Notes under the pieces: model-generated
What the model saw: only the letters and a program-made list of their open reading frames with translations
Told to the model about the DNA's origin: nothing
The model's database searches: none
Made by a program: the position numbers and the translations under genes
Origin: a virus
Strand: one strand, 5' to 3'
DNA: 43,081 nt
IMG/VR virus record: IMGVR_UViG_3300024262_000070
Coordinates: 1-43,081 of that record
Shown here: positions 7,775 through 37,099 of the stretch, piece by piece
Layout of the letters: the number at the start of each line of letters is the position of its first letter
Numbering within the stretch: the first letter of the stretch is position 1

Positions 7775-7779
7775 TTTTG

Positions 7780-7803
7780 GGGGTCATTCCCCACTTTTAT
7801 TTT
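7780..7803 (+). terminator. Stem-loop terminator
   Basis: GGGG (7780-7783), loop TCATT, CCCC (7789-7792), then ACTTTTATTTT. It stands six bases after the coiled-coil gene stop and directly before the structured RNA, so it separates the two transcription or processing units. Confidence 0.65.
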
Positions 7804-8057
7804 AGCAGGGATGCGACTGCTGTGGACACGATTCCACAAGAATAACGCATAGTTTATTCACTCATGTTTCCCAGGACTTCGAGACTCCTGTTGAGAGAAC
7901 GTGAGACAAAGAACCCTCCTCGTATGAGGTACGCCAGTAGTAAATTGGGTCTGGTAGGTTATAACCTGGCTGAACATAAGGAGTTAACATTGCCCTTACC
8001 ACAAAGAGATGGTATAGGTGTTGCGTGTTTGTATGGGTTCGATTCCCACCAGCTAAA
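7801..8057 (+). ncRNA. Structured non-coding RNA with tRNA-like 3' end
   Basis: About 257 bases with no convincing gene, visibly richer in G and C than the flanks. Perfect local stems: ATGCG 7811-7815 with CGCAT 7846-7850; TGTGGA 7821-7826 with TCCACA 7833-7838; CAGGA 7872-7876 with TCCTG 7886-7890; CCTC 7918-7921 with GAGG 7926-7929; GCCAG 7933-7937 with CTGGC 7966-7970; TACCA 7997-8001 with TGGTA 8010-8014. The 3' end GGGTTCGATTCCCACCAGCTAA has a tRNA-style T-loop, and CAGCTAA can pair (six of seven) with TTAGCAG at 7802-7808 to close the molecule. ATGCGAC 7811-7817 could alternatively pair with GTTGCGT 8020-8026. A tmRNA-like molecule, an intron-bearing tRNA or a new viral RNA are possible; no tag peptide ending is seen. 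Confidence 0.55.
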
Positions 8058-8058
8058 T

Positions 8059-8166
8059 ATGAAACAATGTCCAAAATGTAAAACAGAAATGGTGCTATAC
8101 CAATTACTAGGTGGTAAATTTAGATGGGAATGCCCTAATTGTAAGTATGAAGGTGAAATAGAATGA
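8059..8166 (+). CDS. Zinc-ribbon microprotein, 35 aa
   Basis: Thirty-five residues with two CxxC pairs (CPKCKTEM and CPNCKYEG), a minimal zinc ribbon. The ATG at 8059 starts two bases after the tRNA-like acceptor strand and has no ribosome binding site, so it may be translated leaderless after RNA processing. Its stop overlaps the polymerase ATG, implying coupling. A longer frame upstream runs through the structured RNA and is not believed. Confidence 0.6.
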   Translation: MKQCPKCKTEMVLYQLLGGKFRWECPNCKYEGEIE

Positions 8167-9890
8167 TAGCAATAGATACTGAAACAATTTCATTAGAAGA
8201 TAGAACCCTTGTAGGATTTAGCATTGCTAATGAAACACAAGCAAAATATTATCCTATTTTACACAGCAAATTTAAAAATGTAGATTGGGATGAAGCAAGA
8301 GAAACATTACAGCATATAATAGATACAAATCCAATTGTATTTCATAACTCTTCTTTCGATATACCTGTTCTGACAAATTGGGGAATTGACTTATCTAAAG
8401 CAGATATACATGACACATTAATTATAGCAAATTTACTAGATGAAAATGTAAGACATGGATTGAAGGTACTTTCTAAGAGGTACTTACATCACACCATGAC
8501 AGAGCTTAAAGAGATTGTTGGTACTGGTAAGAAGAGAATTAGTGTTGCAGATGCCGATGAACGTATCTTAAAGTATGCAGCCGATGATGCTAGACAAACG
8601 CTTAAACTTTTTTACTACTTGTATCCAAAACTGTCACAAGATAGAAAATTGTTTAAGTTATACAATGAAATAGAGAAACCTTTGTTAAAAGTCATAGCAG
8701 ATATGCACATTGGAGGCATAATGATAGATGCAGGCAGAATTAAAGAAATTGAACAACTTTGCATCAAGAAAACAGACTCGGCAAAAGAGAAATTAGACTA
8801 TGTTATGGAAGGTGTAAATTGTAACAGCACCAAACAGCTAAGAGAATTTTTTATTGGCAAAGAACGTATGCCTATATTAAAACAGACAGACAAAGGTGCT
8901 CCATCAATGGACAAAGAGACACTTAAAACATACGCTGAAACAAATAGTACAGCCAAATTGCTCTTGGAGTATCGTAAGTATGCCAAAATCCTATCAACAT
9001 TTATCCCTGCACTTTCACCAAAAGAGATAGATTTAAAGACTTGTAGGGGTAAGATTCATGCTTCGTTTAATCAAGCAGGTACAACAAGTGGGCGATTCAG
9101 TAGCTCTAAACCTAACATGCAGAATATCCCCAAGGGAGAGAAGGATGAGTTTGGTATCAGAGATTGCATAGTAGCTGACCCTGGACAAATTCTTATTGGG
9201 GCAGATTATTCGCAGGTCGAGCTAAGAATCATGGCTCACTTCTCACAGGACTTTAACTTAATGAAAGCTTACAATGGTACAACAGATGTGCATACTATAA
9301 CTGCGGAAGCTTGTGGTATCACCAGAGACAAAGCAAAAACAATTAACTTTGGATTAATCTATGGTATGAGAGCTAAGACTCTGGGAAAACGGATTGATGT
9401 AGGATATGATGAAGCACAGTCATATATTGATAAATACTTCGAAACTTACAATGCGATTAAACCGTTCTGGGAGCTTACTGAGCAGCAAGTAAGGGGAAGA
9501 GGGTATGTTGAGACCTTCTTTGGTAGAAAGAGGCGTAGGACACGTGAGTTTCAAGCTAAAGACAAGTTTGACCAAAGCAGAGAGATAGGTTCTATGACTA
9601 ATGCTATTATTCAAGGCACAGGTGCAGATATGATGAAGAAATCAATGGTTACTATGTATCCACAGTTAAAAGCAATCGGGGCACGTATCGTTTCTACTGT
9701 GCACGATGAAGTAATTGTTTCATGTCCAATCAAGAACGCCAAGAAGGGGTTTAAGATAGTGCATGAGAGTATGATGCAAGCTGGCAAAGATTTAACTGTT
9801 CCGATTGCAGTTGATTGCAAGTATGGTAGAACCTGGGGCGAGGCACATGGAGATGGAATTAAATTGGAGGAGATAAAATGCCAAGAATAG
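8163..9890 (+). CDS. polA: Family A DNA polymerase with 3'-5' exonuclease
   Basis: A 575-residue replicative or repair DNA polymerase of the Pol I family, lacking the 5' nuclease domain. Proofreading exonuclease: D-T-E at 5-7, HNSSFDIPVL at 61-70, and YAADDA at 138-143. Polymerase: motif A DYSQVELR near 348, motif B RDKAKTINFGLIYG at 388-401, motif C VHDE at 513-516, so all catalytic aspartates are present. The length matches compact phage enzymes. The start overlaps the zinc-ribbon stop and the end overlaps the phosphatase start. It probably copies the viral genome together with the primase-helicase at 38.7 kb. Confidence 0.97.
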   Translation: MIAIDTETISLEDRTLVGFSIANETQAKYYPILHSKFKNVDWDEARETLQHIIDTNPIVFHNSSFDIPVLTNWGIDLSKADIHDTLIIANLLDENVRHGLKVLSKRYLHHTMTELKEIVGTGKKRISVADADERILKYAADDARQTLKLFYYLYPKLSQDRKLFKLYNEIEKPLLKVIADMHIGGIMIDAGRIKEIEQLCIKKTDSAKEKLDYVMEGVNCNSTKQLREFFIGKERMPILKQTDKGAPSMDKETLKTYAETNSTAKLLLEYRKYAKILSTFIPALSPKEIDLKTCRGKIHASFNQAGTTSGRFSSSKPNMQNIPKGEKDEFGIRDCIVADPGQILIGADYSQVELRIMAHFSQDFNLMKAYNGTTDVHTITAEACGITRDKAKTINFGLIYGMRAKTLGKRIDVGYDEAQSYIDKYFETYNAIKPFWELTEQQVRGRGYVETFFGRKRRRTREFQAKDKFDQSREIGSMTNAIIQGTGADMMKKSMVTMYPQLKAIGARIVSTVHDEVIVSCPIKNAKKGFKIVHESMMQAGKDLTVPIAVDCKYGRTWGEAHGDGIKLEEIKCQE

Positions 9891-11545: not shown

Positions 11546-11765
11546 AATAGTTGATGATGCACATTTTAATCTTGCGGCAAATGGAAGTCTTAACTATTTC
11601 CTAGTAAAATTAATGCTAGCAAGACGTAAAAAAGAAATGGAGAGCTACACATTTTATAAGTGTTTCCTTGGAGAATTAGAAATGTGCAAGCAAGAAATTT
11701 ACAGACGATACGTTGCTCCATATGAAGATAAAAAGATAAAAGAAAATGGAGATGTTGAAGAATGA
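11505..11765 (+). CDS. DUF6899-like small protein, 86 aa
   Basis: The pattern MPYIKKMQRKAIDEIV, then A-N-G-S-L-N-Y-F-L-V-K-L, and the C-terminus YRRYVAPYEDKKIKENGDV match, from memory, a small uncharacterised family (DUF6899) frequent in virus and metagenome data. It is helical with no catalytic signature. It is preceded by GGAGGAG and overlaps the previous gene by 41 bases and the next by 4. Confidence 0.7.
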   Translation: MPYIKKMQRKAIDEIVDDAHFNLAANGSLNYFLVKLMLARRKKEMESYTFYKCFLGELEMCKQEIYRRYVAPYEDKKIKENGDVEE

Positions 11766-13702
11766 AATTTGCAGCATATACAAAAGATAGAGAGGCACTT
11801 AAAGAAGCTTCATCAGGTGGAATATTCTACGAGTTAGCTGAATACTTTATCATCAATGGTGGAGTTGTAGTTGGAGTAACAATGGAAGAACTAACACCTG
11901 AATTTCTTATGACTGATAACTTAGAAGATGTAAAAAAGATGCGTGGTTCTAAGTATCTATGGGCGAATCCACTTCCTATATTTGAATGCATAGAATTTGC
12001 AAAAACTCCTGTACTATTCGTTGGATTACCTTGTCAAGTAATAGGTTTAAAACGATACCTTAAAAATAGAAACATACCAGACAAGCATATAACTTATGTA
12101 TCTCTTCGTTGTCATGGAGTAATCAAAACAAAAATATTTAAGGATTATATAGCCTGGATAGAAAATGTAACAAAAAAGCATCTTGTTAATGTTAAATTCA
12201 GAAGTAAAGTAAACGGATGGAAAGGTGCTGGAGTTGGATTTACTTATGATGCTGGAAACAGCTTTAAATTCACAGTATTTTTTAAACCAAAACTTATTAA
12301 AGATTATATAAAACAACATAATGTATTTCCAATGTGTAAGAACTGCACCAAGGATAGAAACGACAGCGACATTACCCTTGGCGATTATTGGGGTTGTCAT
12401 CCAGCACTAAAGAACAGATATGGTACAAGTATTGTAGAAACTAACACAGAAAAAGGTCATAAATTATTTACAAATTTAAAGAATGTAAAATGGGAAATTG
12501 TTTTTACCATTAAACATAAACCACACGTTTTTGTAGATAATAATAAAATAGGACTTCTCAAGGTTGCAGACTTTCATAACTTTGGTAATCTTATGCTTTC
12601 CAGTAATTTTATAACTTATACGAAAGCTGTAAATAAAGATGCAAAATTTGTCTTTATTGAAAACGAATCGGCACAAGATGTAATAGAAAAAGCAACAGGT
12701 GTAACAGATATTGAGTACAGACATATAGAAACATTGAGTAGATTTAACTTAAAGAAGGTGCTCCTGGACACATTCATAGGACTTGTAAATCCACAAGAAA
12801 TGGAACAGGTCAAGGTATTTGCAGACTGTAAACATGTGGCTGTCTTAGGAGGCGACCATTTCTCAGGTGGAATACACTATGCAACCTGGATTATAAATCT
12901 CATAAGACTTAATGCTCTTGCCAAGTGTGGAAAGCAGGTTCATATAGTTAGTAACACTGTAGGCAAATTCCCCTGGTTCTTGAAACCTTTTGTTACACAT
13001 GCTTTTAATAATCTGGAATCAATATGGTGTAGAGATGAGGACAGTATAAAAAGACTAAACAATATAAATGTATATAAAAATGTTTGCTATGCACCAGACC
13101 TTGCATTCTTACCCCTACACAATGAGCTTGAAAATGAAGTAGAAGCAGTAAAAAATGGGTACTGTACCATAGTCACATCGACCTTGTGGAAACAATATGC
13201 AAATACATACAAAGAATATATCAGTGGAGTAAAGAGAATGGCACAAGCATTAATTCTCTTAACACATAAAAATGTAATGATTTTGCCTCACAGCACATAT
13301 GAAAGTGATTTACAGATAGCTAGAGATGTAGCAGATAACAACAGTATCTTTGCTCTCATTGGTGATGAACCTATGACACCAAGTAAAGCTAGAGCAGTAT
13401 TGGCAAACAGTTATCTCAATGTCTCGTTCAGAATGCATGGTGCTATTTCATCACTTGCATCAGATGTTCCAGTTATAGCAATAGCATATAGTCCAAAATA
13501 CGAGGGCGTTATATCAGATGGGTATGACTTGCCTGAACTTGTTGTTGATAAAATGAGTAGAAAAAACTGGCAAAAATGCATTGAAGAAACTATAAGCTCT
13601 ATCAAATATGTAGAAAAATATCGTGACATTATTGTTATGAAAATAGTAGAAGCAAATGAAGTAATGAAAATGGCATTGAAACCATTAGGAGGAATAAAAT
13701 GA
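11762..13702 (+). CDS. FrhB-like / polysaccharide pyruvyl transferase fusion
   Basis: A 646-residue two-domain protein. Residues 1-250 resemble the F420-reducing hydrogenase beta subunit family (FrhB/FdhB): SSGGIF at 17-22, GLPCQVIGLKRYL at 88-100, cysteines 117, 192 and 195 (CKNC), and SDITLGDYWGC at 202-212. Such domains bind Fe-S and flavin, and relatives occur in polysaccharide clusters. Residues about 350-640 are a polysaccharide pyruvyl transferase: VLGGDHFSGG, VNSYLN-type region, SFRMHGAISS near 555-564, then VPVIAIAYSPK. It should ketal-pyruvylate a sugar in the host cytoplasm. It stands first in the glycan cassette, coupled by ATGA. Confidence 0.85.
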   Translation: MKFAAYTKDREALKEASSGGIFYELAEYFIINGGVVVGVTMEELTPEFLMTDNLEDVKKMRGSKYLWANPLPIFECIEFAKTPVLFVGLPCQVIGLKRYLKNRNIPDKHITYVSLRCHGVIKTKIFKDYIAWIENVTKKHLVNVKFRSKVNGWKGAGVGFTYDAGNSFKFTVFFKPKLIKDYIKQHNVFPMCKNCTKDRNDSDITLGDYWGCHPALKNRYGTSIVETNTEKGHKLFTNLKNVKWEIVFTIKHKPHVFVDNNKIGLLKVADFHNFGNLMLSSNFITYTKAVNKDAKFVFIENESAQDVIEKATGVTDIEYRHIETLSRFNLKKVLLDTFIGLVNPQEMEQVKVFADCKHVAVLGGDHFSGGIHYATWIINLIRLNALAKCGKQVHIVSNTVGKFPWFLKPFVTHAFNNLESIWCRDEDSIKRLNNINVYKNVCYAPDLAFLPLHNELENEVEAVKNGYCTIVTSTLWKQYANTYKEYISGVKRMAQALILLTHKNVMILPHSTYESDLQIARDVADNNSIFALIGDEPMTPSKARAVLANSYLNVSFRMHGAISSLASDVPVIAIAYSPKYEGVISDGYDLPELVVDKMSRKNWQKCIEETISSIKYVEKYRDIIVMKIVEANEVMKMALKPLGGIK

Positions 13703-14124
13703 AAATATGTAGAAAATGTGGAACTGAGTTAATTATAAATAAAAATTGGTGCAAAACTCAGGCTATAAGTCGAAATTATGTTTGCCATGACTGTGAAAAT
13801 AAAAGACAGAAAAAATGGAGAAAAGAAAATAAGGAACGTGTAGCAATAAGAGAAGCAAGATACCGAAAAAATCAAAGAAAAGAGCTAGATAAATTAAAAG
13901 TAAATGGATGTGCAATATGTGGATATAATAAATGTAACGCTGTACTAGACTTTCATCACGTTAATCCACAAGATAAAAAATTTAGTTTACAATGTTCAGC
14001 TATGAATCGTTCACCTGTTAATATAATTATAGAGGTCAACAAATGTATTTTGTTGTGCTCAAATTGTCACAAAGAAATTCATTATGGAGGTAAATACGAT
14101 GAAAATTTTATTCATACACCATAA
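13699..14124 (+). CDS. HNH endonuclease
   Basis: A 141-residue HNH nuclease. An N-terminal zinc finger (CRKCGTELI ... CHDC) and a basic helical arm precede the core CAICGYNKCNAVLDFHHVNP, then C-S-N-C-H near 120. The core is nearly identical to that of the nuclease at 38162. It sits between the pyruvyl transferase and the GT4, which suggests a homing gene inserted into the cassette. It is coupled by ATGA and overlaps the GT4 start by 26 bases. Confidence 0.85.
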   Translation: MKICRKCGTELIINKNWCKTQAISRNYVCHDCENKRQKKWRKENKERVAIREARYRKNQRKELDKLKVNGCAICGYNKCNAVLDFHHVNPQDKKFSLQCSAMNRSPVNIIIEVNKCILLCSNCHKEIHYGGKYDENFIHTP

Positions 14125-14974
14125 GTTAAACGCAACTTTTATTAAGAACGACCTTAAAATTTTGAAGAGACATTATGATGTCACAGATTTTTACTTTACC
14201 ATCAAAAAAATTCCACAGTTAATTAAAGAAATTAAAAATACAGACGTGGTTTATGTATGGTTTTTAAGTTATCCTGCATTCCTGGCAGCTAAAATTGCTA
14301 GAGTATATAAAAAACCTGTCATTTTAGTAGCAGGTGGATATGGAGTACAGAGTGATATACTAGAGAAACACAAAATCTTTAAGCTTATGGTAAAATCTGC
14401 AATCAAAAATGCAACAAAAATTTTAGCAGTATCTACATTTACATTACTAGAGGTACAAAAACTAGACTATACCGTATATAGACATGCAAAATGTAAAGTA
14501 GTTTACAATGGTATAGATACAAAACTATTCAAAAACTACAATATAAGAAGTAATAAAAATCCTATAGCATTGACTGTTGGAAACATATTCTCTATGGACA
14601 GATATTATTTAAAAGGCATAGATAGATTCATAAATTTAGCCAGGGTAAATCCAAAAGGGTTATTTTATGTCATTGGAATGTGTAATAAGGTTGCAAAAAA
14701 TATAAAAGATGTTCCTTCAAACTGTCACTTTCTTGCTCCAATACCACAAGAAGCATTACCATTTTTCTACAACATAGCAAACACATACTATCAACTCTCG
14801 ACATATGAATCATTCTGTCTTACATTACTTGAAGCTAGAGCATGTGGCTGCAATGTAGTAACATCTGCTGAAAGAACAGGCATGGATGAAATTCAAGGCA
14901 TGTTTATCAGTGAATTGACACTAGAAAAAAGAGAAAAGAAATTAGTGGGGGTATTAGATGGATATAAAAACTGA
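14099..14974 (+). CDS. GT4-type glycosyltransferase
   Basis: A 291-residue GT-B glycosyltransferase. N-terminal acceptor domain: KILFIHHKLNATFIKNDLK, VVYVWFLSYPAFLAAKIARV, and the hinge YNGIDTKLF near 140. Donor domain: ALTVGNIF, KGIDRFI, then TYESFCLTLLEARACG, the E-x7-E signature holding the nucleotide sugar. The family is GT4-like. Start ATG 14099 follows GGAGGTAAATACG; an ATG 15 bases upstream lies within the site. It likely adds a sugar to a glycan modified by the neighbouring genes. Confidence 0.85.
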   Translation: MKILFIHHKLNATFIKNDLKILKRHYDVTDFYFTIKKIPQLIKEIKNTDVVYVWFLSYPAFLAAKIARVYKKPVILVAGGYGVQSDILEKHKIFKLMVKSAIKNATKILAVSTFTLLEVQKLDYTVYRHAKCKVVYNGIDTKLFKNYNIRSNKNPIALTVGNIFSMDRYYLKGIDRFINLARVNPKGLFYVIGMCNKVAKNIKDVPSNCHFLAPIPQEALPFFYNIANTYYQLSTYESFCLTLLEARACGCNVVTSAERTGMDEIQGMFISELTLEKREKKLVGVLDGYKN

Positions 14975-15869
14975 ATTTAGAAAAGGCTGTAGTATTATAA
15001 TCCCTACATGGAACTGTGAACTAACGATAAAAGAGTGCATTGAGAGTATTCCGAAAGCATTTCCTAAAGATGTTCCATTAGAGTTAATCATTGTCGATAA
15101 AAAAAGTGATGATTGGACAATAGCAGATATAGTTTTTTGGAACATGCACTATGATAATATTAAACTTAAAATTTTGTCTGATACAGGTGCATTAGGAGCA
15201 GCAAGGCTAAGAGGAATAGACAATGCGAAATATCCTACAATCTTTTGGCTCGATGCAGATATTATATTGCCTGAAAATTACATTGAAGATTTGTTCAAAG
15301 AACTAAAAAAATTTAAAGGTAAACCAGTTGCACAGATTCAAGGTAGAATGCATGGTACAGACAATTTAGCATTTAGATGGTGGGCTGGATATGGAATAGC
15401 CACAAGGAGAAAAAACAAAATAAATTATGTAGAGGCAATTAATGGAGCAACAGCAAACGCCCTAGTAATTAAGTCTACTTTAAAAATGACAGACAAAGAA
15501 CGTGAATATCTTAAAAAACTACATTCGACTGAGGATTCATTCTTATCGTCTGTGGTGCAAAGTAAAGGTTACTGTCAGTTGATGTTTCCCATAGATACTA
15601 TTCACCTTGTACGTGAAGTCTGTGACGTTGAGGGGTCGCATAAGATAGTTTGGTCATTGGTAGGTCTAAAAGACAGAGGTTACGGCAAATTAAATGCTTT
15701 ATGGCATATGAAGTTTCTTTGGCGTAATGGATACTATGCATTCTTGGAGTATCAGACCCTAGATTTAGTAACATATACAATTAGACTACAATTAAATCTT
15801 ATCAGGGCATGCCTCAAGGATAAAAGAATCATCAATCAACGTAGACTGATTACATTAAAGGAGTGGTAA
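14958..15869 (+). CDS. GT2-type glycosyltransferase
   Basis: A 303-residue GT-A glycosyltransferase of family 2: CSIIIPTWNCELTIKECIES at the N-terminus, LELIIVDKKSDD near 45, LGAARLRGI, and the metal-binding DxD in FWLDADI near 100. Acceptor side: TEDSFLSSVV. No transmembrane helix. It overlaps the GT4 by 17 bases, so the two are coupled. The target may be a virion or cell-surface glycan. Confidence 0.88.
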   Translation: MDIKTEFRKGCSIIIPTWNCELTIKECIESIPKAFPKDVPLELIIVDKKSDDWTIADIVFWNMHYDNIKLKILSDTGALGAARLRGIDNAKYPTIFWLDADIILPENYIEDLFKELKKFKGKPVAQIQGRMHGTDNLAFRWWAGYGIATRRKNKINYVEAINGATANALVIKSTLKMTDKEREYLKKLHSTEDSFLSSVVQSKGYCQLMFPIDTIHLVREVCDVEGSHKIVWSLVGLKDRGYGKLNALWHMKFLWRNGYYAFLEYQTLDLVTYTIRLQLNLIRACLKDKRIINQRRLITLKEW

Positions 15870-25326: not shown

Positions 25327-25330
25327 GTTA

Positions 25331-25522
25331 TTACCTTTGTGCTTTTCTTTTTGCAATCATATCCTTAGTAGACTCAGGTAGTGCTCCCTCTTCGATATAA
25401 GGATGACCAGATTCAATTTGATTAATTTTATGGGCTGTTTTTAAGATTGATAGAAATCTCCAATAACCCATACTTAATATTTCGTTAAGATTACCATGCT
25501 TTACATAAAAACCGTGAATCAT
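25331..25522 (-). CDS. Tail assembly chaperone, T-frame
   Basis: Read alone this frame starts at ATG 25522 (IHGFYVKHGNLNEILSMGYW), overlapping the upstream stop. The same frame is open upstream to the slippery site at 25564, encoding EKLYLEEEFKNFDEM. A -1 shift there would give a fusion of about 187 residues (110 + 77), the equivalent of lambda gpGT. This C-terminal extension would bind the tape measure next door. Confidence 0.7.
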   Translation of the reverse strand: MIHGFYVKHGNLNEILSMGYWRFLSILKTAHKINQIESGHPYIEEGALPESTKDMIAKRKAQR

Positions 25523-25893
25523 CTCATCGAAGTTTTTGAACTCTTCTTCGAGGTACAGTTTTTCTTTTTTGGAGGTTTTTCCTCCTGGCGAAAATATATG
25601 TCTTTTTTTCCAGCATAATATACAGCGTTGAAAAATTCCACAAGGTTTTCTGGATGTATAAAATATTTTGCAACACTTTCTAACTCAACTGTTTCATCTA
25701 TCTCTATTAAAGTTTGATAAATAATAGCGTACTTTAACCAATTTTCTTTAACTGTATCACTAATATTTTTCTTATCTTTTGTGTATTCGATAGCTAAAGC
25801 AATTGCTTTTTCATGCTTTTCAACTGTCCAATCTGTTACTTCAAACGGTTTTCCTTCATTCACAAACTCTAAATTATATTTTGTTTTTTTCAT
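25519..25893 (-). CDS. Tail assembly chaperone, G-frame
   Basis: A 124-residue helical protein (DWTVEKHEKAIALAIEYTKD, VESVAKYFIHPENLVEFF) located between tail tube and tape measure, where the chaperone always sits. The C-terminus is lysine-rich (KPPKKKNCTSKKSSKTSM). Near its end a slippery heptamer lets ribosomes move to the -1 frame. The start is close to a terminator-like hairpin that follows the tail tube. Confidence 0.75.
   Translation of the reverse strand: MKKTKYNLEFVNEGKPFEVTDWTVEKHEKAIALAIEYTKDKKNISDTVKENWLKYAIIYQTLIEIDETVELESVAKYFIHPENLVEFFNAVYYAGKKDIYFRQEEKPPKKKNCTSKKSSKTSMR
25564..25586 (-). other. Programmed -1 frameshift cassette
   Basis: On the minus strand the order is AGGAGG (25586-25581), ten bases, then the heptamer A AAA AAG (25570-25564) in the correct zero frame (CCA AAA AAG). 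AGGAGG plus the spacer also forms the stem GGAGG / CCTCC. The heptamer and upstream anti-Shine-Dalgarno-like spacing copy the dnaX stimulator of E. coli. The -1 frame runs directly into the T-frame ORF. Confidence 0.75.
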
Positions 25894-25924
25894 TTTTTCT
25901 ACCTCGTTTTTTAAAAAGAAAATA

Positions 25925-25937
25925 GGGGATGAACCCC
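25925..25937 (-). terminator. Terminator-like hairpin after tail tube gene
   Basis: On the minus strand GGGG, loop TTCAT, CCCC, followed by TATTTTCTTTTT, 8 bases after the tail-tube stop. It would raise tube over chaperone output or stabilise the 3' end. Confidence 0.6.
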
Positions 25938-25944
25938 AAAATCT

Positions 25945-26877
25945 CTAAGCTGGTACTGCGGATACAATAAGACTGCAACCAGTTGGTTTACAATCGAATG
26001 GAACTGAGCTTGACATTGCTTCGCCTGAAACATTCTTATCAAGAGAAGTGTTTTTCCATTGACAAGCAGGTAAAGTAATTCTTGGTGCTCCAGCAGCACC
26101 CATATCAACTACAATTTCAAATGCTGTGTTAGCCAATACTTCTCCGTAATGTTGTGCTCCACCACCGTCTAGTGTAATATCTACTGAACCTTCAACATCC
26201 ATCGCACCTTCTACAAGATAAGATTTAGTTAAAGCATCATGGTCAGTTTGTCCACCTAGATTTTGATTCACTGTAATGTCTATTGAGTTTGTAATAAACG
26301 CAATATGGTCAGTGTTAACAACAAGTCCACCTGTCTTTCTAATCTCTCCAGCCACATTAAACTGTAAATATGCTCCAGCTAAAGCAGCAGGGGCAGTTCC
26401 TAATTCATCAGCACCTACAGAAACTATAGATTGAGTTTCATAATCAACTACAACCATATACTCTGTATTCTTTGAACCAGTAATACGAACTGTACTAGGT
26501 TTTGCTCCTTTTACTCTGAACCAAGACGAGTCTATGCCAGTTTTGCACTTATTGAATCCAACTGCAAACGATAAAGATTGCAATGCACAACAATTGCCTA
26601 CCCTGTCAATAGCATCATCTATCATAGTATCATCCAATTGTGGAATATACTCAAGATGTAATTTTGGCTCTGTAATTTGTTTTAGAAAGTGACAGACTAA
26701 TGGTGATTCTATGCTTCTAAGAGATTTATGCCTATCGCCACTATCAATTCTTACATCTTGTACTTTGCAAGAAACTGGTAATGAGTTAAGGCTAATTTCA
26801 GTCACAACTCCATAGGAATCTTCGACCCAGTAATAAATAGTACCGTCAAACGGATTACCTAATTCGGTCATTGCCAT
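25945..26877 (-). CDS. Major tail (tube) protein
   Basis: A 310-residue protein beginning TELGNPFDGTIYYWVEDSYG. The layout is typical of tube subunits: an initial loop-strand region, a long beta-barrel middle (KLHLEYIPQLDDTMIDDAID), a ligand-like second domain (NLGGQTDHDALTKSYLVEG), and a C-terminal strand (CSLIVSAVPA). Location, length and strong ribosome binding site (AAAGGAGG) support high expression. Confidence 0.7.
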   Translation of the reverse strand: MAMTELGNPFDGTIYYWVEDSYGVVTEISLNSLPVSCKVQDVRIDSGDRHKSLRSIESPLVCHFLKQITEPKLHLEYIPQLDDTMIDDAIDRVGNCCALQSLSFAVGFNKCKTGIDSSWFRVKGAKPSTVRITGSKNTEYMVVVDYETQSIVSVGADELGTAPAALAGAYLQFNVAGEIRKTGGLVVNTDHIAFITNSIDITVNQNLGGQTDHDALTKSYLVEGAMDVEGSVDITLDGGGAQHYGEVLANTAFEIVVDMGAAGAPRITLPACQWKNTSLDKNVSGEAMSSSVPFDCKPTGCSLIVSAVPA

Positions 26878-26909
26878 AAGTTTTTTCCTCCTTTTATTTT
26901 TTTAATATC

Positions 26910-26936
26910 TCTTTCTATGCGTGGAATTTAGAAAGA
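26910..26936 (-). other. Eight-base-pair hairpin upstream of tail tube gene
   Basis: TCTTTCTA (26910-26917) and TAGAAAGA (26929-26936) pair perfectly around 11 bases, just before the AAAGGAGG site of the tube gene. It could be a 5' mRNA stabiliser or a processing site. Confidence 0.45.
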
Positions 26937-26943
26937 TGTTAAT

Positions 26944-27435
26944 CTAAACACAATGGTCATAGTAAAGACAGTGTACAGTTGCCACATAATGATAAACAAG
27001 TTGATTACCTGTTGTCTCTGGTAAATAAGTATCACTATCTAAATTTATCCATTGCATGTCTGTAAATGTATATTGATAAGTTCTTACTGCATTTTGTAAG
27101 AAATCCTTAATTTTTTTACCTACAGCTTCTCGGTCTATGTTATCGGTATCGGTCACATATACATGCAAGTCGATATACGAATCCATTTTCCTTGTAGTCG
27201 CCCCTACATCATGCTCAAGGTAATATGTTTTAACTATTTGCATTTCAATATAAGGCATAGCAGGTAAATTTTCAGATTTTATTTTCTCTGAAAAATACAT
27301 TGGAATATATAAAGGGTCATTATGATTATCTGTGATAATAATACATTTTACTGTTGTACCAGTTTCTTCTACATCCCAATCTGTACCTATCTTATCTCTA
27401 ATAGACTCTCTAGGGTCAAATGAAATAAATGCCAT
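26944..27435 (-). CDS. Putative tail terminator/completion protein, 163 aa
   Basis: A 163-residue protein (DPRESIRDKIGTDWDVEETG). The part LPAMPYIEMQIVKTYYLE, then the strand-helix pattern SYIDLHVYVTDTDN followed by DREAVGKKIKDFLQ, matches tail terminator-like proteins that cap the tube. Its position directly before the tube fits. No strict signature. Confidence 0.6.
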   Translation of the reverse strand: MAFISFDPRESIRDKIGTDWDVEETGTTVKCIIITDNHNDPLYIPMYFSEKIKSENLPAMPYIEMQIVKTYYLEHDVGATTRKMDSYIDLHVYVTDTDNIDREAVGKKIKDFLQNAVRTYQYTFTDMQWINLDSDTYLPETTGNQLVYHYVATVHCLYYDHCV

Positions 27436-28418
27436 TATCTACCTTCTCCTGGCAACATTCCACCACCTACAATTGGTCTACGAATTTTACGTCTTAGTTT
27501 TTTATACTTAGCCTGTAATGATTTTCGTCTTACATTAAATTTAATGACATTTGGATTTAAATCAGCTTGTGTAGTTCCTTGTAAACTTGTAAATTTAATT
27601 AAACACTCATATGCAGCAAGATAAACTACTGCTTTTCTCAGAATTTTCTCGTTAAATGTTCTCCATTCTGTACGATATGTAACTGTCGCCCATTGTAAGT
27701 CAGCAGGCAATGCGGAATCATCATCTTGAGTAAGAGTTACGTTACCACATTTAGATTCATTCACAGTAACCTTTCCATCGTGACAGTCGCCATCTGCATC
27801 TTTCCATAGTAATGTTATGTCAGAAATACAGCTTGTACCGTCAGCACCCGTTACAGAGCCATCTCCGTTATAGTCTGCTATAGGTGGATTTTTAACTGCA
27901 AACACTTTATTTGTTCCGTCAACCCATTTTCCATCATCGGGATTACATAAGAAAGTTTCGTTTTCATGCAGCACATAAACTTCTTCTAAGATTTCCTCAT
28001 ATGCTTCAAGAATTATAAGTGCAATATCTTTATCGTCAACTGATTTTTTAGATAGAATACCTGCTTTACGTCTTACTTCTTGTGTAGCATTCCAAGGCAA
28101 TAAAATATATCTGTCTCTGTATATATTTGTATAAACAGAAGGAGAAGTAGCTATAATTTCTACCTCATACTCTCCATACAATGCATCAGCAGCAATTTCA
28201 TAGTAATATTCGTACACACCTGTTGCAGATGTGCTCATTGCTTGTGCAGTTATCAGGTCTGTTCCACAAGGGCTGCGAATAGTGATAGAAACTGATGTAG
28301 GGTCAACGAGTACATGACTCTCATTCTTAATATTTATTTTTATGAAATTTGTTTCTGCTCGTTCACAGATTACATTTTTTTGCTCATCTGGAACATAAAA
28401 TTTATAAATTGACCCCAT
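27435..28418 (-). CDS. Head-tail connector with Ig-like and dockerin-like segments, 327 aa
   Basis: N-terminal ~100 residues form an immunoglobulin-like sandwich (FIKINIKNESHVLVDPTSVS). Around residues 187-200 lies a Ca-binding loop DYNGDGSVTGAD of dockerin/EF-hand type. The C-terminal part is helical and basic (LRKAVVYLAAYECLIKFTSL, then KYKKLRRKIRR), as in gp6-like connectors. The three-domain mix is unusual; the connector role is inferred from position. Start ATG 28418 after GGAGAGAG. Confidence 0.6.
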   Translation of the reverse strand: MGSIYKFYVPDEQKNVICERAETNFIKINIKNESHVLVDPTSVSITIRSPCGTDLITAQAMSTSATGVYEYYYEIAADALYGEYEVEIIATSPSVYTNIYRDRYILLPWNATQEVRRKAGILSKKSVDDKDIALIILEAYEEILEEVYVLHENETFLCNPDDGKWVDGTNKVFAVKNPPIADYNGDGSVTGADGTSCISDITLLWKDADGDCHDGKVTVNESKCGNVTLTQDDDSALPADLQWATVTYRTEWRTFNEKILRKAVVYLAAYECLIKFTSLQGTTQADLNPNVIKFNVRRKSLQAKYKKLRRKIRRPIVGGGMLPGEGR

Positions 28419-28430
28419 ATTTCTCTCTCC

Positions 28431-28610
28431 TTAATTTTTCTTTTTAGGTGTATATTTTTCTTTAAGCTGTTTTTCCCGTTCTTTGTTAAGCTCTTGTTGA
28501 ATCCTGACTCTAAATGTTCCAATTATCATACCTACTTTTGGTAAGCACTCAACTTTATTTAATATTATATCGAGAGCCTGAATTTCTTTTTGATTTATTT
28601 CTACCTTCAT
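28431..28610 (-). CDS. Hypothetical small protein, 59 aa
   Basis: ATG 28610 preceded by AAGAGGTAGATAAT. A basic helical protein (KVEINQKEIQALDIILNKVE, tail EKQLKEKYTPKKKN). It sits between the nuclease and the connector; unknown function. Confidence 0.55.
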   Translation of the reverse strand: MKVEINQKEIQALDIILNKVECLPKVGMIIGTFRVRIQQELNKEREKQLKEKYTPKKKN

Positions 28611-28615
28611 ATTAT

Positions 28616-29332
28616 CTACCTCTTAACATTACTCCATATCCCTTTCTTGTTTTCACATTCATACAAACCGAGGGCATGTAAGTAACCTTTAAACTCTAAC
28701 ACTAATTCATCATAAGTCATTTCTTTGACCCTGATTTTACCATTACGAAATTGAGCAATAAATGCTCCCTCTAACTTAACTCCTGTAAGCTCTTCAAATG
28801 CCATAATATATGCAGCCATTTGTAACCAGTATTGCGGATATATGTCAGCACTTGTTTTCCAATCTCCAATAACTCTGGACTCTTTTATAAACTTAGACTT
28901 ATGCCCACGAACTAAATATTTAGCAAAACTTTTGTATTGACCTATGTAATCAGCAGTTCCAGCATATCCATGTTTGTTGCTCCAAATATTTTGCTCCAAT
29001 GCTTCTGGTTCAAGGCACGTATTAATTTTAAACTCATCAAATAAATTTAAATCGTCTTGTATTTCTTTTTCATAGTTTCCAAGATTAAACGATTCACCCT
29101 TTAATGTTCTTTCAAATAAATTATGAACAATCGTTCCAAGGTCACATCGTCTCTTTATGATTGCCTCAACTTTCTTTCTACCTACCCTTGCAGCCCATGA
29201 AGTTATACCTGGTTTAGCAATTATATTTAAGACTTGAGTAACACGAGCATAGTCTTTTCCGTTGATACGATAGTTCTTACTGTCTACCTCAAAATCTTCG
29301 GGTTTTACAATGCTCCAAGATTTTTTATTCAT
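28616..29332 (-). CDS. PD-(D/E)XK nuclease, RecB/Cas4-like
   Basis: A 238-residue nuclease. H70 in LGTIVHNLFE, D128 in GTADYIGQ, the D157-W-K159 pair in VIGDWKTSAD and the QMAAY motif at 171-175 give the full RecB-nuclease set. It lacks the four cysteines of Cas4. It could trim DNA ends, degrade host DNA or assist recombination. It lies inside the virion operon between capsid and tail genes, an unusual place. The start overlaps the 39-aa ORF next to it. Confidence 0.8.
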   Translation of the reverse strand: MNKKSWSIVKPEDFEVDSKNYRINGKDYARVTQVLNIIAKPGITSWAARVGRKKVEAIIKRRCDLGTIVHNLFERTLKGESFNLGNYEKEIQDDLNLFDEFKINTCLEPEALEQNIWSNKHGYAGTADYIGQYKSFAKYLVRGHKSKFIKESRVIGDWKTSADIYPQYWLQMAAYIMAFEELTGVKLEGAFIAQFRNGKIRVKEMTYDELVLEFKGYLHALGLYECENKKGIWSNVKR

Positions 29333-29444
29333 TAGAGAACATCTCTTTCCACTTGTAACTGTTTAACAATGTTCTCAGCCTAGCGAAACTCCATTCGGAG
29401 ACATATTTTATCTCGCCTGTTTTAACGTTCATAAATTTTCTCAT
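29325..29444 (-). CDS. Microprotein, 39 aa
   Basis: ATG 29444 after TTAAGAGGTAGAAAA. Compact sequence MNVKTGEIKYVSEWSFARLR. Its last 8 bases overlap the nuclease gene start, suggesting coupled translation. No family recognised. Confidence 0.5.
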   Translation of the reverse strand: MRKFMNVKTGEIKYVSEWSFARLRTLLNSYKWKEMFSNE

Positions 29445-29471
29445 TTTTCTACCTCTTAATTCATTCCACTT

Positions 29472-29487
29472 TTGGTTTTGAAACCAA
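29472..29487 (-). repeat. Perfect hairpin after capsid terminator
   Basis: TTGGTTT and AAACCAA with two bases between. It stands 32 bases beyond the capsid terminator and may be a processing site. Confidence 0.4.
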
Positions 29488-29519
29488 GTCCTTTCGACAG
29501 TGATAAAAAATATAAGAAA

Positions 29520-29533
29520 GGGGTTTAAGCCCC
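29520..29533 (-). terminator. Terminator-like hairpin after capsid gene
   Basis: On the minus strand GGGG-CTTAAA-CCCC, followed by TTTCTTATATTTTTTAT, ten bases after the capsid stop. It would terminate or partly attenuate transcription and give an excess of capsid over downstream genes. Confidence 0.65.
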
Positions 29534-29542
29534 TTAGTGCGT

Positions 29543-30898
29543 TTATGGGTTTACGATATGGTAGATAGCAGCAGTGTCTAGTTCACCGAAAGCTGCAAAG
29601 CACCACCAGTCGATGTGCCATGAGTTACATTCTTGCACGAATCTTTTGTACATCTTTGGTTGTTCACCGAACACTGCACCAACAGCCCGTCTTGAATCAA
29701 CAAGGATAGCGATGGTTGTTCCAGTTAAAGAAGTACAAGTTTGTGCCCTGCAATACTCGATAACATTGATTCCAGCTATTTTGCTAAGGTTTCCATCAGA
29801 ATCGAAGTGAACATCACCAGGTAATAGTACAGGTGAAGCGTGATTCATTCTTTTGAATATGTTAGCGATAGTTGGTGAAATTATCATGTAATCAAGATTG
29901 TAAGGATTTGCTCCTTCTCTAGCAGCAGCACTTGCACGGTTGACAGCATCATACAGATACATAAGTGAAACATCATCACAACATGTTGCATTTTGTGTTG
30001 GTGTACAACTTAGTGCAGCAGTAAGTGTAACATCAGTTCCAGGTGTAGCAGTGAAAAGTTCTTGGTAAATCATGTTATCAAACCAGGTTGCCCATGAATC
30101 AGCCATTGCATCAATTTGTGTATCTAGCAAAATAGAGCCTACATCGAAAATATCAAATTCACAAACCCTTCCCTCTAATCCGTATTGAAGTAGAGTAAGT
30201 GGATATGTGGTTCTGGTAATTGAAGTACAGGTTGCACACTCACAAGCTCCTAATGCAGCAGGTGCTCCCCATTGTCCATAGACACGGATTTGAATACCAT
30301 TTCCTTGACCTGGGTTTATAGCAAGTCCTTTTACACAGACTTTAAACAAGTCAGCTTTACAAACAGCAGTATTCCAAACTACTTTAGCGTAGTTATCTGC
30401 TGGACTCCATGCATCAAATAAATCTGCACAGCCTGAATCGTCATCTGTATTTTGCCACATGTCATCGAAACCAGCAACATCCCATTTGCCATTTCTCATA
30501 ACTGTCATTTGCATATCAGGAACACCTTTAACTAAATCGTTACTGTGATTAGAAAAAGACTTTACTGTTTTATGACGGTCAAAATAACCTTCACATTGTT
30601 CCTGGAATTTGCTCTTGTCTACAACGGTTTTCTTTTCACCTTCTTTTGTCAGTTTGCTTTTTGGTGCAAGTTCTGGATGGTCAGCGTAAAACTGCTCTCC
30701 AGCCTGAATTGTAAGTTCAGCAAGTTTAGCATCATCGGCTGTTTTTTGAGCCTCTTCTAGTAACTCTTTATCTTTCTTTGCACTCTCTTCAATCAATTTT
30801 TGTTTTTGTTTGATTGAATTAGATTTGATAGTCTTATCGAGAGACTCTTCATATTTTTCGAGTTCCTCTGGAGACATATCCTCAATATTTTTAGTCAT
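29543..30898 (-). CDS. Major capsid protein, HK97 fold
   Basis: A 451-residue protein. The first ~100 residues form a charged coiled coil (SPEELEKYEESLDKTIKSNS, EESAKKDKELLEEAQKTAD), like the scaffolding delta-domain removed by the protease. The remainder has typical capsid features: an extended E-loop region near SNDLVKGV, tightly folded core (NRASAAAREGANPYNLDYMI, SPTIANIFKRMNHASP) and a C-terminal strand VFGEQPKMYKRFVQ. It directly follows the protease with an 8-base overlap and is flanked by a terminator. Confidence 0.88.
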   Translation of the reverse strand: MTKNIEDMSPEELEKYEESLDKTIKSNSIKQKQKLIEESAKKDKELLEEAQKTADDAKLAELTIQAGEQFYADHPELAPKSKLTKEGEKKTVVDKSKFQEQCEGYFDRHKTVKSFSNHSNDLVKGVPDMQMTVMRNGKWDVAGFDDMWQNTDDDSGCADLFDAWSPADNYAKVVWNTAVCKADLFKVCVKGLAINPGQGNGIQIRVYGQWGAPAALGACECATCTSITRTTYPLTLLQYGLEGRVCEFDIFDVGSILLDTQIDAMADSWATWFDNMIYQELFTATPGTDVTLTAALSCTPTQNATCCDDVSLMYLYDAVNRASAAAREGANPYNLDYMIISPTIANIFKRMNHASPVLLPGDVHFDSDGNLSKIAGINVIEYCRAQTCTSLTGTTIAILVDSRRAVGAVFGEQPKMYKRFVQECNSWHIDWWCFAAFGELDTAAIYHIVNP

Positions 30899-31616
30899 CT
30901 AAATTTTCCTCCTTAGATTTAATACGTTTTATAATCTCTTGCCTTTTTTCTTCTAAGGCATCTAAAACATCTTGCTCTTCTTTAGATACATTACATGTAC
31001 CATCTAAGCAAGTGTTGTCATTTCTAACTCCGCAACCATCTTTGTCACTACATCTTCCTTGAAGAACTGTAGACACGCAAAAGGGTGTCACATTTATAAG
31101 GACAGGTACTAAGTCATTTGGAGAATAACCTTCGGATTTATAATCTACTCCAGCAGGTAATTCTTTTGCCACTACAAGCTTTCTATTTCCTAAATATGTT
31201 GTTGAGACATTAGGAATTTGTCCAGCTAGTTCACAAGTCTCAATATACGCTTCCCACGCAGATGCATACATCGTATTGTGATTCACTTTTACATCCATTG
31301 TTACTTCCTTGGTTTTGGAATTATGTTTAACGTTAGTATGATAACCTACAAAGTACAAAATATTTCCATTAGGAGCATCTGTACCTGCATGATTTATATC
31401 GTGCAATGTTCCTTCCCATTGTTCATAAACACGTTTACTTTCTTTCTCAGAGAAGAATCCACCATTCATAAATCTATCACCCACAATAGCAGTTATCCTG
31501 TAAGTTCTCTCATCTTCCTCTGCTCCAGCACTATTAGTTACTTTACTATGTATAACCTCAAATTTACTTGAGCAAGTGAACATTTCTTTTTTATCTTTTT
31601 TTGGCATAATTATCAT
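30891..31616 (-). CDS. Prohead maturation protease
   Basis: A 241-residue protein lying between portal-side genes and the capsid. The EWEGTLHDINHAG-like segment (H in TLHDINH) and PNVSTTYLG (S) fit the His-Ser pair of HK97-type proteases; LVPVLINVTPFCVSTV resembles the strand after the active site. The C-terminus is a charged helix (EKRQEIIKRIKSKEENLDD), as in scaffold-linked proteases. Cysteine-rich insertion CSDKDGCGVRND is odd. Start is coupled by ATGA. Confidence 0.7.
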   Translation of the reverse strand: MIIMPKKDKKEMFTCSSKFEVIHSKVTNSAGAEEDERTYRITAIVGDRFMNGGFFSEKESKRVYEQWEGTLHDINHAGTDAPNGNILYFVGYHTNVKHNSKTKEVTMDVKVNHNTMYASAWEAYIETCELAGQIPNVSTTYLGNRKLVVAKELPAGVDYKSEGYSPNDLVPVLINVTPFCVSTVLQGRCSDKDGCGVRNDNTCLDGTCNVSKEEQDVLDALEEKRQEIIKRIKSKEENLDD

Positions 31617-32092
31617 CTCGTATGTTTTTTTGGAATAAACATTGATTCTACTTGTGATAAACCATTTTTAGGAATTGTTCCATCCGCTTTGCCTTTTGCT
31701 GTAGCATCTATTCCATCTTGCCATACATTAGGAAACCACTCTTCGGGAGGTTTCACATAAGGCTCTATTAAAGGTAATAGTTTATCAGCCATTTTTAATA
31801 TCTTGTAAAGTACCCAGAAAAATGCATCTCGGTAAGCAGTATCTTTTACCACTAACCACAAGAAGAATTTTCCGAAAGTTCTTGTTGAGTCACGTTGCCA
31901 TTTAGGTTTAAGATTATCAGCAGTAACCTCAATCAATTTATCTAACGCCTTTACTATAGGAACAGGACTGCACTTTAAATCATCGTTTCTTACAGCCTCT
32001 TTTTTCACAAGTTTTTTGCAAATAAGCCTAAGACCCATACGGAGAATTTTTTTATCCCATTCAGCGTATTCTATTCCAGGCAAAAAAATCAC
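31613..32092 (-). CDS. Hypothetical virion-module protein, 159 aa
   Basis: A GTG start overlaps the previous stop. The 159 residues are helical and hydrophobic in places (FGKFFLWLVVKDTAYRDAFF), with no clear transmembrane prediction. No family recognised. It could be a minor head protein. Confidence 0.55.
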   Translation of the reverse strand: MIFLPGIEYAEWDKKILRMGLRLICKKLVKKEAVRNDDLKCSPVPIVKALDKLIEVTADNLKPKWQRDSTRTFGKFFLWLVVKDTAYRDAFFWVLYKILKMADKLLPLIEPYVKPPEEWFPNVWQDGIDATAKGKADGTIPKNGLSQVESMFIPKKHTR

Positions 32093-32694
32093 CGACTAAC
32101 TTTAGCCTTGGCAAGCTTTTTGTTATGCTCAACAGCTTTCTTCATAGCTATTTTAGCATCTTTCTTAGCCGCTTCTCTTTTCTTTGGGTCTATTAACTTA
32201 TCAAGTTCAGCCTCAAATAAAGTTGACTCATCTTTTATAGCAGTTCTTGCAGGTGCAATTTTCTTAGCTGTTACGTTTTGAAAACGCCTATTGAAATATT
32301 CTCTGTTTCTAATTCCAGATTCAATGAAAGTTTCATAGCGATACTCTACTTGAGTATTGACAGCTTGCAATGATTGAAGGTAATTTTTAATTGTCTCATC
32401 AAATATTTTTAATATTTCTTTCTTGTTGCCTTCTGGGTATGTCATAACTTTTGGTATTAATGTAAGATTAATTGGCATCTTTATTTCGCCATCTTGTATT
32501 TTCTTTCTACTCTTTTGCAATTGAGCCACAACATGCTCAAACTGTGTTTGCTGTGTCAATATTTTCGAGTAATCATTTGATGCTTCTTTAAGCTCTTCAA
32601 AATACTGAGCTTCCATTTGACTTAGTGGCATCAAACGTTGTGGTTTTTGCACTTCAACTTCTTTTGCTTTATTTTTTCTATTTCCTTTTGCCAT
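32089..32694 (-). CDS. Coiled-coil head protein, 201 aa
   Basis: Lysine-rich, helical, 201 residues with basic ends (AKGNRKNKAKEVEVQKPQRL at start, AAKKDAKIAMKKAVEHNKK near the end). Composition and position just before the head-tail adapter suggest a scaffold or minor head protein; no specific family. Confidence 0.55.
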   Translation of the reverse strand: MAKGNRKNKAKEVEVQKPQRLMPLSQMEAQYFEELKEASNDYSKILTQQTQFEHVVAQLQKSRKKIQDGEIKMPINLTLIPKVMTYPEGNKKEILKIFDETIKNYLQSLQAVNTQVEYRYETFIESGIRNREYFNRRFQNVTAKKIAPARTAIKDESTLFEAELDKLIDPKKREAAKKDAKIAMKKAVEHNKKLAKAKVSR

Positions 32695-32706
32695 ATTATC
32701 TACCTC

Positions 32707-33114
32707 TTATTTATTTAAATATATTAAGTCTATTGTTCTAAACATTTTTTCATTGAACTTGTGTTCTACATCCCAAATGCTACTCCTCATAAAAGGCACG
32801 CTTGCCATTTTTCCTGACGTACTTTTATAAGTTCTTAGAGATGACACATCATCGGGCACAGGAAAATATCTAGTACCGTGTTCAATGTATATAGCATGTT
32901 TAACATCACATACAATAGCGTATCTTCCTTTGCCAAGTTGTACCCATCGAATAGCTTTTACAGCATCGCCTTTATCAACAGGGCATCTCTTTCTAGCCAA
33001 GGTGACTATCTCATCAAGCATGTTTTCAAAGTCTGTTCCATCATTAAGTCTTTTCATAAATTTTTTATTAGCAATGATGAGTTCTTTAACTCCAATAGCT
33101 TTAAGACTGAACAT
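32707..33114 (-). CDS. HK97 gp10-like head-tail completion protein
   Basis: A 135-residue protein. TLARKRCPVDKGDAVKAIRW, then CDVKHAIYIEHGTRYFPVPD and the C-terminal SVPFMRSSIWDVEHKF are the hallmarks of the HK97 gp10-like tail-component family. It joins the neck to the tail tube. The 14-base overlap with the portal end shows coupling. Confidence 0.85.
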   Translation of the reverse strand: MFSLKAIGVKELIIANKKFMKRLNDGTDFENMLDEIVTLARKRCPVDKGDAVKAIRWVQLGKGRYAIVCDVKHAIYIEHGTRYFPVPDDVSSLRTYKSTSGKMASVPFMRSSIWDVEHKFNEKMFRTIDLIYLNK

Positions 33115-34693: not shown

Positions 34694-34697
34694 AATA

Positions 34698-36026: not shown

Positions 36027-36039
36027 TTACGAGAATTAC

Positions 36040-36080
36040 TCCTTCCACCCTTATATCCATAGAAGTATATAAGCTTTTCT
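36040..36080 (-). promoter_or_regulatory. Late leftward promoter
   Basis: On the minus strand CTTATATAC (box centred at 36069) predicts a start near 36043, 17 bases before the terminase GTG, with the GGAAGGAG site in the leader. Upstream purines (GAAAAG) fit an archaeal B-recognition element. Confidence 0.6.
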
Positions 36081-36198
36081 ATAAATATCATATGGATAAG
36101 TATATTATACATAATGAAATTGTATTTCTAGTCAGCATTTCGCCTTTTTTCGCTTTTTTCATCAAGTTGAAAATCTGAAACTCTAAAAAAAGTATGTG

Positions 36199-36349
36199 TT
36201 TCTCGTTATGCAGGTTTCAATATCCCTATACCGTAATAGTTATGGAAACGTTTTTAGTAAAAACGCTATACACGTTTCTCTAATAGGCTTTTTTGAAAAA
36301 GCTGCGTATCGAGAAAGTTATACTCTTGCTATGATTTTTAGTAAAATCA
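36199..36349. promoter_or_regulatory. Divergent control region with paired inverted repeats and hairpins (possible origin)
   Basis: TTTCTCGTTATGCAGG (36199-36214) and TGCGTATCGAGAAA (36303-36316) are inverted copies of the elements bracketing the 4.6-kb promoter. A 23-base block (36222-36244) is the perfect inverted copy of 4657-4679. Three perfect 7-bp stems follow: 36249-36265, 36287-36302 and 36332-36349, two of them sharing TTTTTAGTAAAA. It lies in the 384-base gap between the diverging terminase and 36412 genes, otherwise AT-rich and gene-free. Confidence 0.6.
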
Positions 36350-36367
36350 CTTGTTGAAAAAGCTAAG

Positions 36368-36401
36368 GTTTATATAGGATGCCCCCTCTAATGGCGAGGG
36401 A
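36368..36401 (+). promoter_or_regulatory. Rightward promoter, duplicate of block at 4926
   Basis: GTTTATATA (36368-36376) predicts a start near 36398, 14 bases before the ATG at 36412, so the leader includes the GAGGGAG site. The 34-base block matches 4926-4959 at 31 positions, extending well beyond the TATA box. Confidence 0.6.
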
Positions 36402-36411
36402 GACTGTATTT

Positions 36412-36873: not shown

Positions 36874-37099
36874 TGCTGTTTTTCCTGTGTCAAGGAAAGA
36901 TTATATCACCCTTGCTGAAAGATTTGTTAAAACAATGGAATCGACAACTCTTGTGTTAGAAGGCTTACAAGTAGCATCTAGTCAACAAGCTTCGATGTTA
37001 ACCAGTATGGCAGAACAAGTGGCAGGATTACAAATAGTAAAAGCAGAGGAACAAGGAAAGAAAGATAAAGGTACAGTAGAAGATGTATCATTTCAATAG
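36845..37099 (+). CDS. Hypothetical protein, 84 aa
   Basis: ATG 36845 after GGTGAG (overlapping the previous gene by 29 bases). Basic amphipathic start (RKLLQKIFNAVFPVSRKDYI) and helical, acid-tailed rest. Unknown. Confidence 0.55.
   Translation: MRKLLQKIFNAVFPVSRKDYITLAERFVKTMESTTLVLEGLQVASSQQASMLTSMAEQVAGLQIVKAEEQGKKDKGTVEDVSFQ

Follow-up and report, generated by a model that had tools for sequence, protein, structure and literature searches.

Ribosome rescue by tmRNA is found in nearly all bacteria, and phage interference with it is, to our knowledge, hardly known. The tmRNA surveys of 2014 and 2025 name a form that consists of the tRNA-like domain alone in one phage only, DS6A, and by their account a molecule of this DS6A type inhibits tmRNA, perhaps through titration of SmpB and irrespective of its ability to accept alanine (PMC4131195, PMC11915505). 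In a survey of phage genomes, tmRNAs were typed with ARAGORN (PMC9004378).

The DNA analysed here, referred to as the window, is a whole IMG/VR virus record of 43,081 bases, from an uncultivated bacterial virus. End repeats are absent, and the gene content suits a phage with a tail: terminase, portal, tape measure, primase/helicase and family A DNA polymerase. No integrase, as would go with a phage attachment site that copies a tmRNA 3' end, was found among the ORFs scanned, which were part of the record's ORFs. Besides a fusion of polysaccharide pyruvyl transferase with FrhB-like domains, the surface-sugar gene cluster at 11762-15869 has an HNH-like ORF and a pair of glycosyltransferase-like genes. 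The candidate RNA lies in a 284-base gap (7775-8058), with a terminator-like hairpin on one side and a zinc-ribbon gene on the other. The locus has the following features:

7778 to 7803, + strand, intrinsic-terminator-like hairpin and T tract (TGGGGGTCATTCCCCA CTTTTATTTT), at the end of the upstream operon and immediately ahead of the RNA
7801 to 8057, + strand, candidate non-coding RNA with tRNA-like ends, about 256 nt, marked by a GC peak, non-coding frames, a unique T-arm and a composite score
8059 to 8166, + strand, gene for a zinc-ribbon protein of 35 aa, leading the polymerase operon, with gene-like codon use (log-odds 0.15)
8163 to 9890, + strand, family A DNA polymerase gene, 575 aa (PF00476, E 1e-99)

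The start of a zinc-ribbon ORF just after the RNA, pointed out in an earlier sequence-only reading of the window, is the ATG at 8059; zinc-ribbon models match the 35-aa protein weakly, the best being Zn_ribbon_TFIIB (E 8e-5). Terminator-like hairpins number two in 1 kb, against 0.8 expected from shuffles, and no promoter match was found near 7801 on the + strand.

The segment 7801-8057 is a real, non-coding and unusual element. The sequence-only reading had called it richer in GC than its flanks, and it is in fact the GC peak of the record: among all 257-nt stretches the maximum falls at 7805-8061, with 0.459 against 0.341 for the genome, and seven other large gaps have GC contents of 0.295-0.338. 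The same reading saw no convincing gene, and by codon use all six frames are non-coding. The best has a log-odds of -0.25, where the reference, real genes of this genome cut into 213-nt pieces, gives 0.28 +/- 0.14 with a minimum of -0.04. Folding is less distinctive. The minimum free energy is -72.7 kcal/mol (z -1.15), a value that 29 of 200 dinucleotide shuffles match or better; 130-nt fold windows inside the RNA give z from -1.5 to +1.1, and the one at z -3.0 takes in the terminator just upstream. Since overall and local folding energies are ordinary, the local stems listed earlier, which do exist, are by themselves no evidence of structure; they are what the composition gives. A perfect 12-base palindrome, AGGTTATAACCT, lies inside the region at 7956-7967, and near copies of it occur elsewhere at chance level.

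What sets the segment apart structurally is its two ends, which can be arranged as follows:

7802 to 7808, + strand, 5' acceptor strand TTAGCAG, with 6/7 pairs to 8050-8056 (position 6 is A-A, and position 3 is A-U, not G-U)
7809 to 7817, + strand, D-loop-like motif GGATGCGAC, 7/8 against the tmRNA consensus GGNTTCGAC
7821 to 7830, + strand, 5' strand of a P2-like helix, UGUGGACACG, pairing with 8024-8033 through 10 consecutive pairs, 4 of them G-U
8024 to 8033, + strand, 3' strand of the P2-like helix, ending at the T-stem
8033 to 8049, + strand, T-arm, with stem ATGGG/CCCAC (4/5 pairs) and loop TTCGATT
8050 to 8057, + strand, 3' acceptor strand CAGCTAA and discriminator A; CCA is not encoded

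The T-loop-like TTCGATT seen earlier is indeed held in a stem. The motif GGGTTCGATTCCC, at 8035-8047, is the sole T-arm motif in the window on both strands, where 0.025 would be expected by chance, and 8033-8049 has the tmRNA-type form (UUCRANN loop on a 5-bp stem) with four of the five stem pairs. The acceptor pairing of TTAGCAG with CAGCTAA is likewise as first described, with its one A-A mismatch, and is extended by an additional T-A pair, 7801/8057. The outer pairs U-A and U-A, together with 7801/8057, are still paired at places where tmRNAs have G-C. In tmRNA a stemless GGNUUCGAC is expected a few nt past the acceptor; the window has GGAUGCGAC, 7/8, at a spacing of 0, compared with 3-4 nt in the full-length tmRNAs fetched. 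The P2-like helix has a competitor in a local hairpin, 7821-7826/7833-7838.

A 6/7 acceptor match alone is common by chance upstream of any T-arm, and the tmRNA-type domain was therefore tested as a whole. The composite test scored, in this order, an acceptor, the D-loop motif GGNTTCGAC and a helix adjoining the T-stem, and it was run over all upstream starts. The best start was 7802 (acceptor 6/7, motif 7/8, helix of 9-10 pairs; score 14.6), and this score was matched by 5 of 4000 dinucleotide shuffles. Acceptor and D-motif without the helix were matched by 11/4000 shuffles, and the P2-like helix alone by 116/4000. Thus the acceptor match is notable only when joined to the D-loop motif and the helix beside the T-stem. 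On the same scale four genuine viral tmRNAs scored 13.4-18.3. Because the test was designed after the candidate was seen, its outcome is moderate evidence. We judge that a functional tRNA-like 3' domain is somewhat more probable than its opposite.

By its defining features the window RNA is not a tmRNA. The check proposed with the sequence-only reading, an Infernal/Rfam search for tmRNA, tRNA, RNase P and group I models, came out negative: no family reached its cut-off anywhere in the window. The tmRNA model RF00023 gave 13.7 bits against a cut-off of 47, with the 3' part only (E 3.4e-5 over the record), and 8.2 bits with the T-arm only when the RNA was scanned alone; at E values up to 10, this T-arm was the only Rfam match in the RNA. 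The strong resemblance to tmRNA claimed for the 3' end is therefore confined to the T-arm and the 3' strand of the acceptor. An acceptor with G1-C72, G2-C71 and G3-U70 is absent, positions 1-3 being U-A, U-A and A-U, and so is the GGAC linker that follows P2. As was first noted, there is no tag peptide: reading in three frames gave no credible tag frame with a resume codon, and GCA TAG at 7847-7852, after AATAAC, is a weak tag lead. ARAGORN called 0 genes in the window, neither tRNA nor tmRNA, and no tRNA cloverleaf with an anticodon arm and no Rfam tRNA match were found. Group I intron, RNase P, Y-RNA-like and other Rfam classes were rejected, having no Rfam match. A covariance model built from 36 phage RNAs that consist of the tRNA-like domain only accepted just the T-arm of the window RNA (13.2 bits, E 0.41), which means that it is not a member of that class. 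Even outside the tmRNA family, the RNA may still work like the tRNA-like domain of a tmRNA.

The 5' end of the RNA is uncertain, because the best Rfam placement uses another 5' strand (7968 on). The domain-only model does not match the Rfam placement, in which a short 5' strand at 7966 gives an RNA of 92 nt with G3-U70; as the RNA start, 7801 is preferred to 7966 by both the GC peak and the composite score. In a permuted layout the 5' strand would lie downstream, at 8118-8127, which is inside the zinc-ribbon gene, and this pairing was taken as chance.

Three observations have the support of tests: a GC peak in non-coding sequence, the T-arm, and the composite tRNA-like-domain pattern. From them we consider it likely that 7801-8057 is a non-coding RNA gene, and probably one with a tRNA-like 3' domain, whose function we infer. 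Given the composite result of 5/4000, the earlier suggestion of a viral RNA that resembles tmRNA or mimics tRNA is still the best available reading, with the reservations that several features defining tmRNA are missing and that the decoy-class model does not match. Tentatively, then, 7801-8057 would encode a non-coding phage RNA whose ends are tmRNA-like and which possibly mimics tRNA or tmRNA. In such an RNA of ~256 nt the two ends would join as a tmRNA-type tRNA-like domain, made of an acceptor stem, a D-loop motif without D-stem, a T-arm, and a P2-like helix replacing the anticodon stem, with about 190 nt of other sequence where the mRNA-like domain would be. Lacking both a recognisable tag frame and the alanine signal G3-U70, the RNA should not tag proteins. 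Its elbow and acceptor could engage the proteins and enzymes that handle tmRNA and tRNA (SmpB, EF-Tu, RNase P, tRNase Z), and host ribosome rescue might thereby be reduced or redirected during infection. We infer, in this scheme, a discrete transcript, its ends, its descent from tmRNA and its decoy action; a relationship to tmRNA comes close to an even chance without reaching it, and decoy action by the window RNA is rather doubtful.

Other explanations were weighed against the mimic. The segment could be the 5' leader or regulatory region of the polymerase operon, with operators, leader hairpins and the palindrome, its T-arm and acceptor having arisen by chance. Its position, preceded by a terminator and followed by the gene that opens the next operon, fits, as do the perfect palindrome AGGTTATAACCT at 7956-7967 and the ordinary folding energy, but the other gaps of this genome have normal low GC, a T-arm is expected only 0.025 times, and the composite pattern arises in 5/4000 shuffles; we regard a leader as unlikely. 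A 106-codon protein frame, 7846-8166, with the zinc ribbon as its C-terminus, continues from the RNA into the zinc ribbon without a stop codon. It was rejected as a gene, since the log-odds for 7846-8058 is -0.25 against the real-gene minimum of -0.04 and tblastn gave no protein match, and we hold it to be highly improbable.

Two further alternatives keep a direct tie to tmRNA. In favour of a non-functional relic of a full ancestral tmRNA are the 3' acceptor CAGCUAA+A, set beside CAGCUCC+A in domain-only RNAs such as L131 or L151, the D-motif at 7/8, the loss of tag, GGAC and G3-U70, and the full and short tmRNAs that viral contigs carry. Decay alone, however, would not give the kept outer pairs U-A, U-A and 7801/8057, which are G-C in tmRNAs, and GC is high over the entire stretch. 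Such a relic seems to us improbable. Still less probable is a very divergent working tmRNA with an unrecognised tag. Its length and end architecture would suit, some tmRNAs have extremely short tags, Ala-Ala (PMC11915505), and GCA TAG follows AATAAC at 7847-7852; yet RF00023 is far below cut-off, G3-U70 is missing, the usual hydrophobic Ala-ended tag is in no frame, and space for pseudoknots between P2 and the GCA is scant. The preferred reading remains the non-coding RNA with tmRNA-like ends.

Relatives were sought by DNA and by way of the polymerase, its N-terminus and the pyruvyl-transferase-like gene. No homologue of the window RNA was found by DNA, protein-anchored and pattern searches of the viral collection, and the main weakness of the structure is that it was read from one sequence without homologues. 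Exact and degenerate patterns of the 3' end had no match in viral contigs, and the pattern GGATNCGAC...GGTTCGATTCC returned short tmRNAs, tRNAs and chance pairs, with no homologue. Polymerase relatives reach at most about 35% identity over long matches, so distant that the RNA region has no counterpart in them. The best in the viral collection (L001; 32% identity, E 2e-58) is on a contig that also carries a tRNA-like-domain-only tmRNA (G013:4265-4342). Terminase relatives L093 and L094 are 91% identical and are fragments without the RNA region; within window 25329-42985 these two are genus-level relatives, mostly at 76-80% DNA identity, across the structural genes and, in the case of L093, the primase as well.

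When RF00023 was run on the phage records behind the polymerase hits, it gave strong tmRNA matches just 77-82 nt long. These are complete tRNA-like domains in which a short closed P2 hairpin replaces the whole coding domain. As a set they are about 75-82 nt long, with GGUUUCGAC, a closed P2 hairpin, GGAC and mostly G3-U70, and a pattern for this layout found at least 120 stretches in the viral collection. The loci include:

L120, 1466 to 1543, domain-only tmRNA
L122, 336 to 417, - strand, domain-only tmRNA
L125, 286 to 362, domain-only tmRNA
L127 to L206, 80 loci, domain-only tmRNAs

The acceptor has at least 6/7 pairs in 78 of the 80 fetched, and the pattern did not require acceptor pairing; P2 pairing was not part of it either, and all seven P2 pairs change on both sides among 69 distinct rows. 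The whole-structure covariation score of those rows is 0.69, compared with 0.15 for shuffles and at most 0.13 for slid controls, although the alignment was fitted to the structure and the covariation counts are thereby inflated. Position 3-70 is G-U in 54 of the 69. Full-length unannotated copies are present in Pontimonas phage phiPsal1 (L247:2999-3081, 72 bits) and Streptomyces phage pSt2308 (L248:2501-2581, 69 bits), with full-length BLAST matches also in LuckySocke and GiJojo. ARAGORN did not call the domain-only RNAs here. They are a more solid and more interesting outcome than the window RNA, and together with the DS6A literature their number supports the use of tRNA-like-domain decoys by phages as a class.

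Other RNAs were seen on viral contigs. A conserved tRNA-like RNA of 91-104 nt lies roughly 0.5-2.5 kb upstream of the family A polymerase in phage contigs, at these loci:

L006, 1671 to 1762, tRNA-like RNA
L017, 1223 to 1314, tRNA-like RNA
L019, 2579 to 2670, tRNA-like RNA
L020, 105 to 196, tRNA-like RNA
L021, 1206 to 1298, tRNA-like RNA
L024, 1756 to 1847, tRNA-like RNA
L060, 2603 to 2695, tRNA-like RNA
L025, L027, L029 and L038, variants

It has an acceptor, a D-like stem, a variable-arm-like hairpin and a T-arm, with 98% of cells paired and 8 pairs changed on both sides. Conservation does not extend to the anticodon-like loop. There was no ARAGORN call, and no Rfam family reached cut-off in the four scanned (L006, L019, L027, L060). 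Genuine short tmRNAs with tag frames, 246-274 nt, are carried by viral contigs L071 (4179-4399), L072 (1978-2227), L073, L080 and L081 (41-261), with RF00023 scores of 110-117 bits for L071, L072 and L081. The window RNA, at ~256 nt, is close to them in length. A polymerase relative on phage contig L058 has around it, at 437-898 and 8289-8568, a full tmRNA (69.5 bits) together with a group I intron (84.7 bits).

By analogy, the window RNA would share the logic of the domain-only RNAs: tmRNA-like ends, no tag, and carriage by a phage. The widest reading is that phages broadly employ a strategy in which a copy of the tRNA-like domain of tmRNA binds SmpB/EF-Tu and blunts host trans-translation, mostly by means of 75-82 nt domain-only RNAs missed by current annotation, and that the window RNA is an exceptionally large example of it, with no tag and no capacity for alanylation; for the window RNA we consider this distinctly unlikely. 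If it is a mimic, the domain can persist when alanine identity is lost and a large unrelated sequence is inserted. Regardless of the window RNA, domain-only tmRNAs occur commonly on viral contigs and have gone unannotated in isolates such as phiPsal1 and pSt2308, and inhibition of trans-translation by phage RNA decoys becomes directly testable.

In comparison with known systems, the window RNA shares with tRNA a T-arm and a near-complete acceptor, and differs in having no D-stem, anticodon arm or ARAGORN call. The 91-104 nt tRNA-like RNAs (L006, L019, L025 and others) have in common with it a T-arm, an acceptor, carriage by a phage and a place upstream of a related polymerase gene; they are shorter, with other acceptors and their own covarying D-like and variable-arm helices, and the likeness noted is the T-arm only. 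With tmRNA (ssrA, RF00023, and the short phage forms L071, L072 and L081) it shares the T-loop TTCGATT, the acceptor 3' strand CAGCU..A, a D-loop-like motif near GGNTTCGAC, a P2-like helix abutting the T-stem and the total length, but it is below cut-off, lacks a tag frame, the G1/G2 pairs, G3-U70 and GGAC, and has a D-spacing of 0. The domain-only tmRNAs (Mycobacterium phage DS6A, PMC4131195, PMC11915505; L127-L206) are 75-82 nt, with a closed P2 hairpin, GGAC and mostly G3-U70, whereas the window RNA is 256 nt and matches in the T-arm only; what the two share is a phage origin and a tRNA-like domain without a coding domain, for which inhibition of tmRNA has been proposed.
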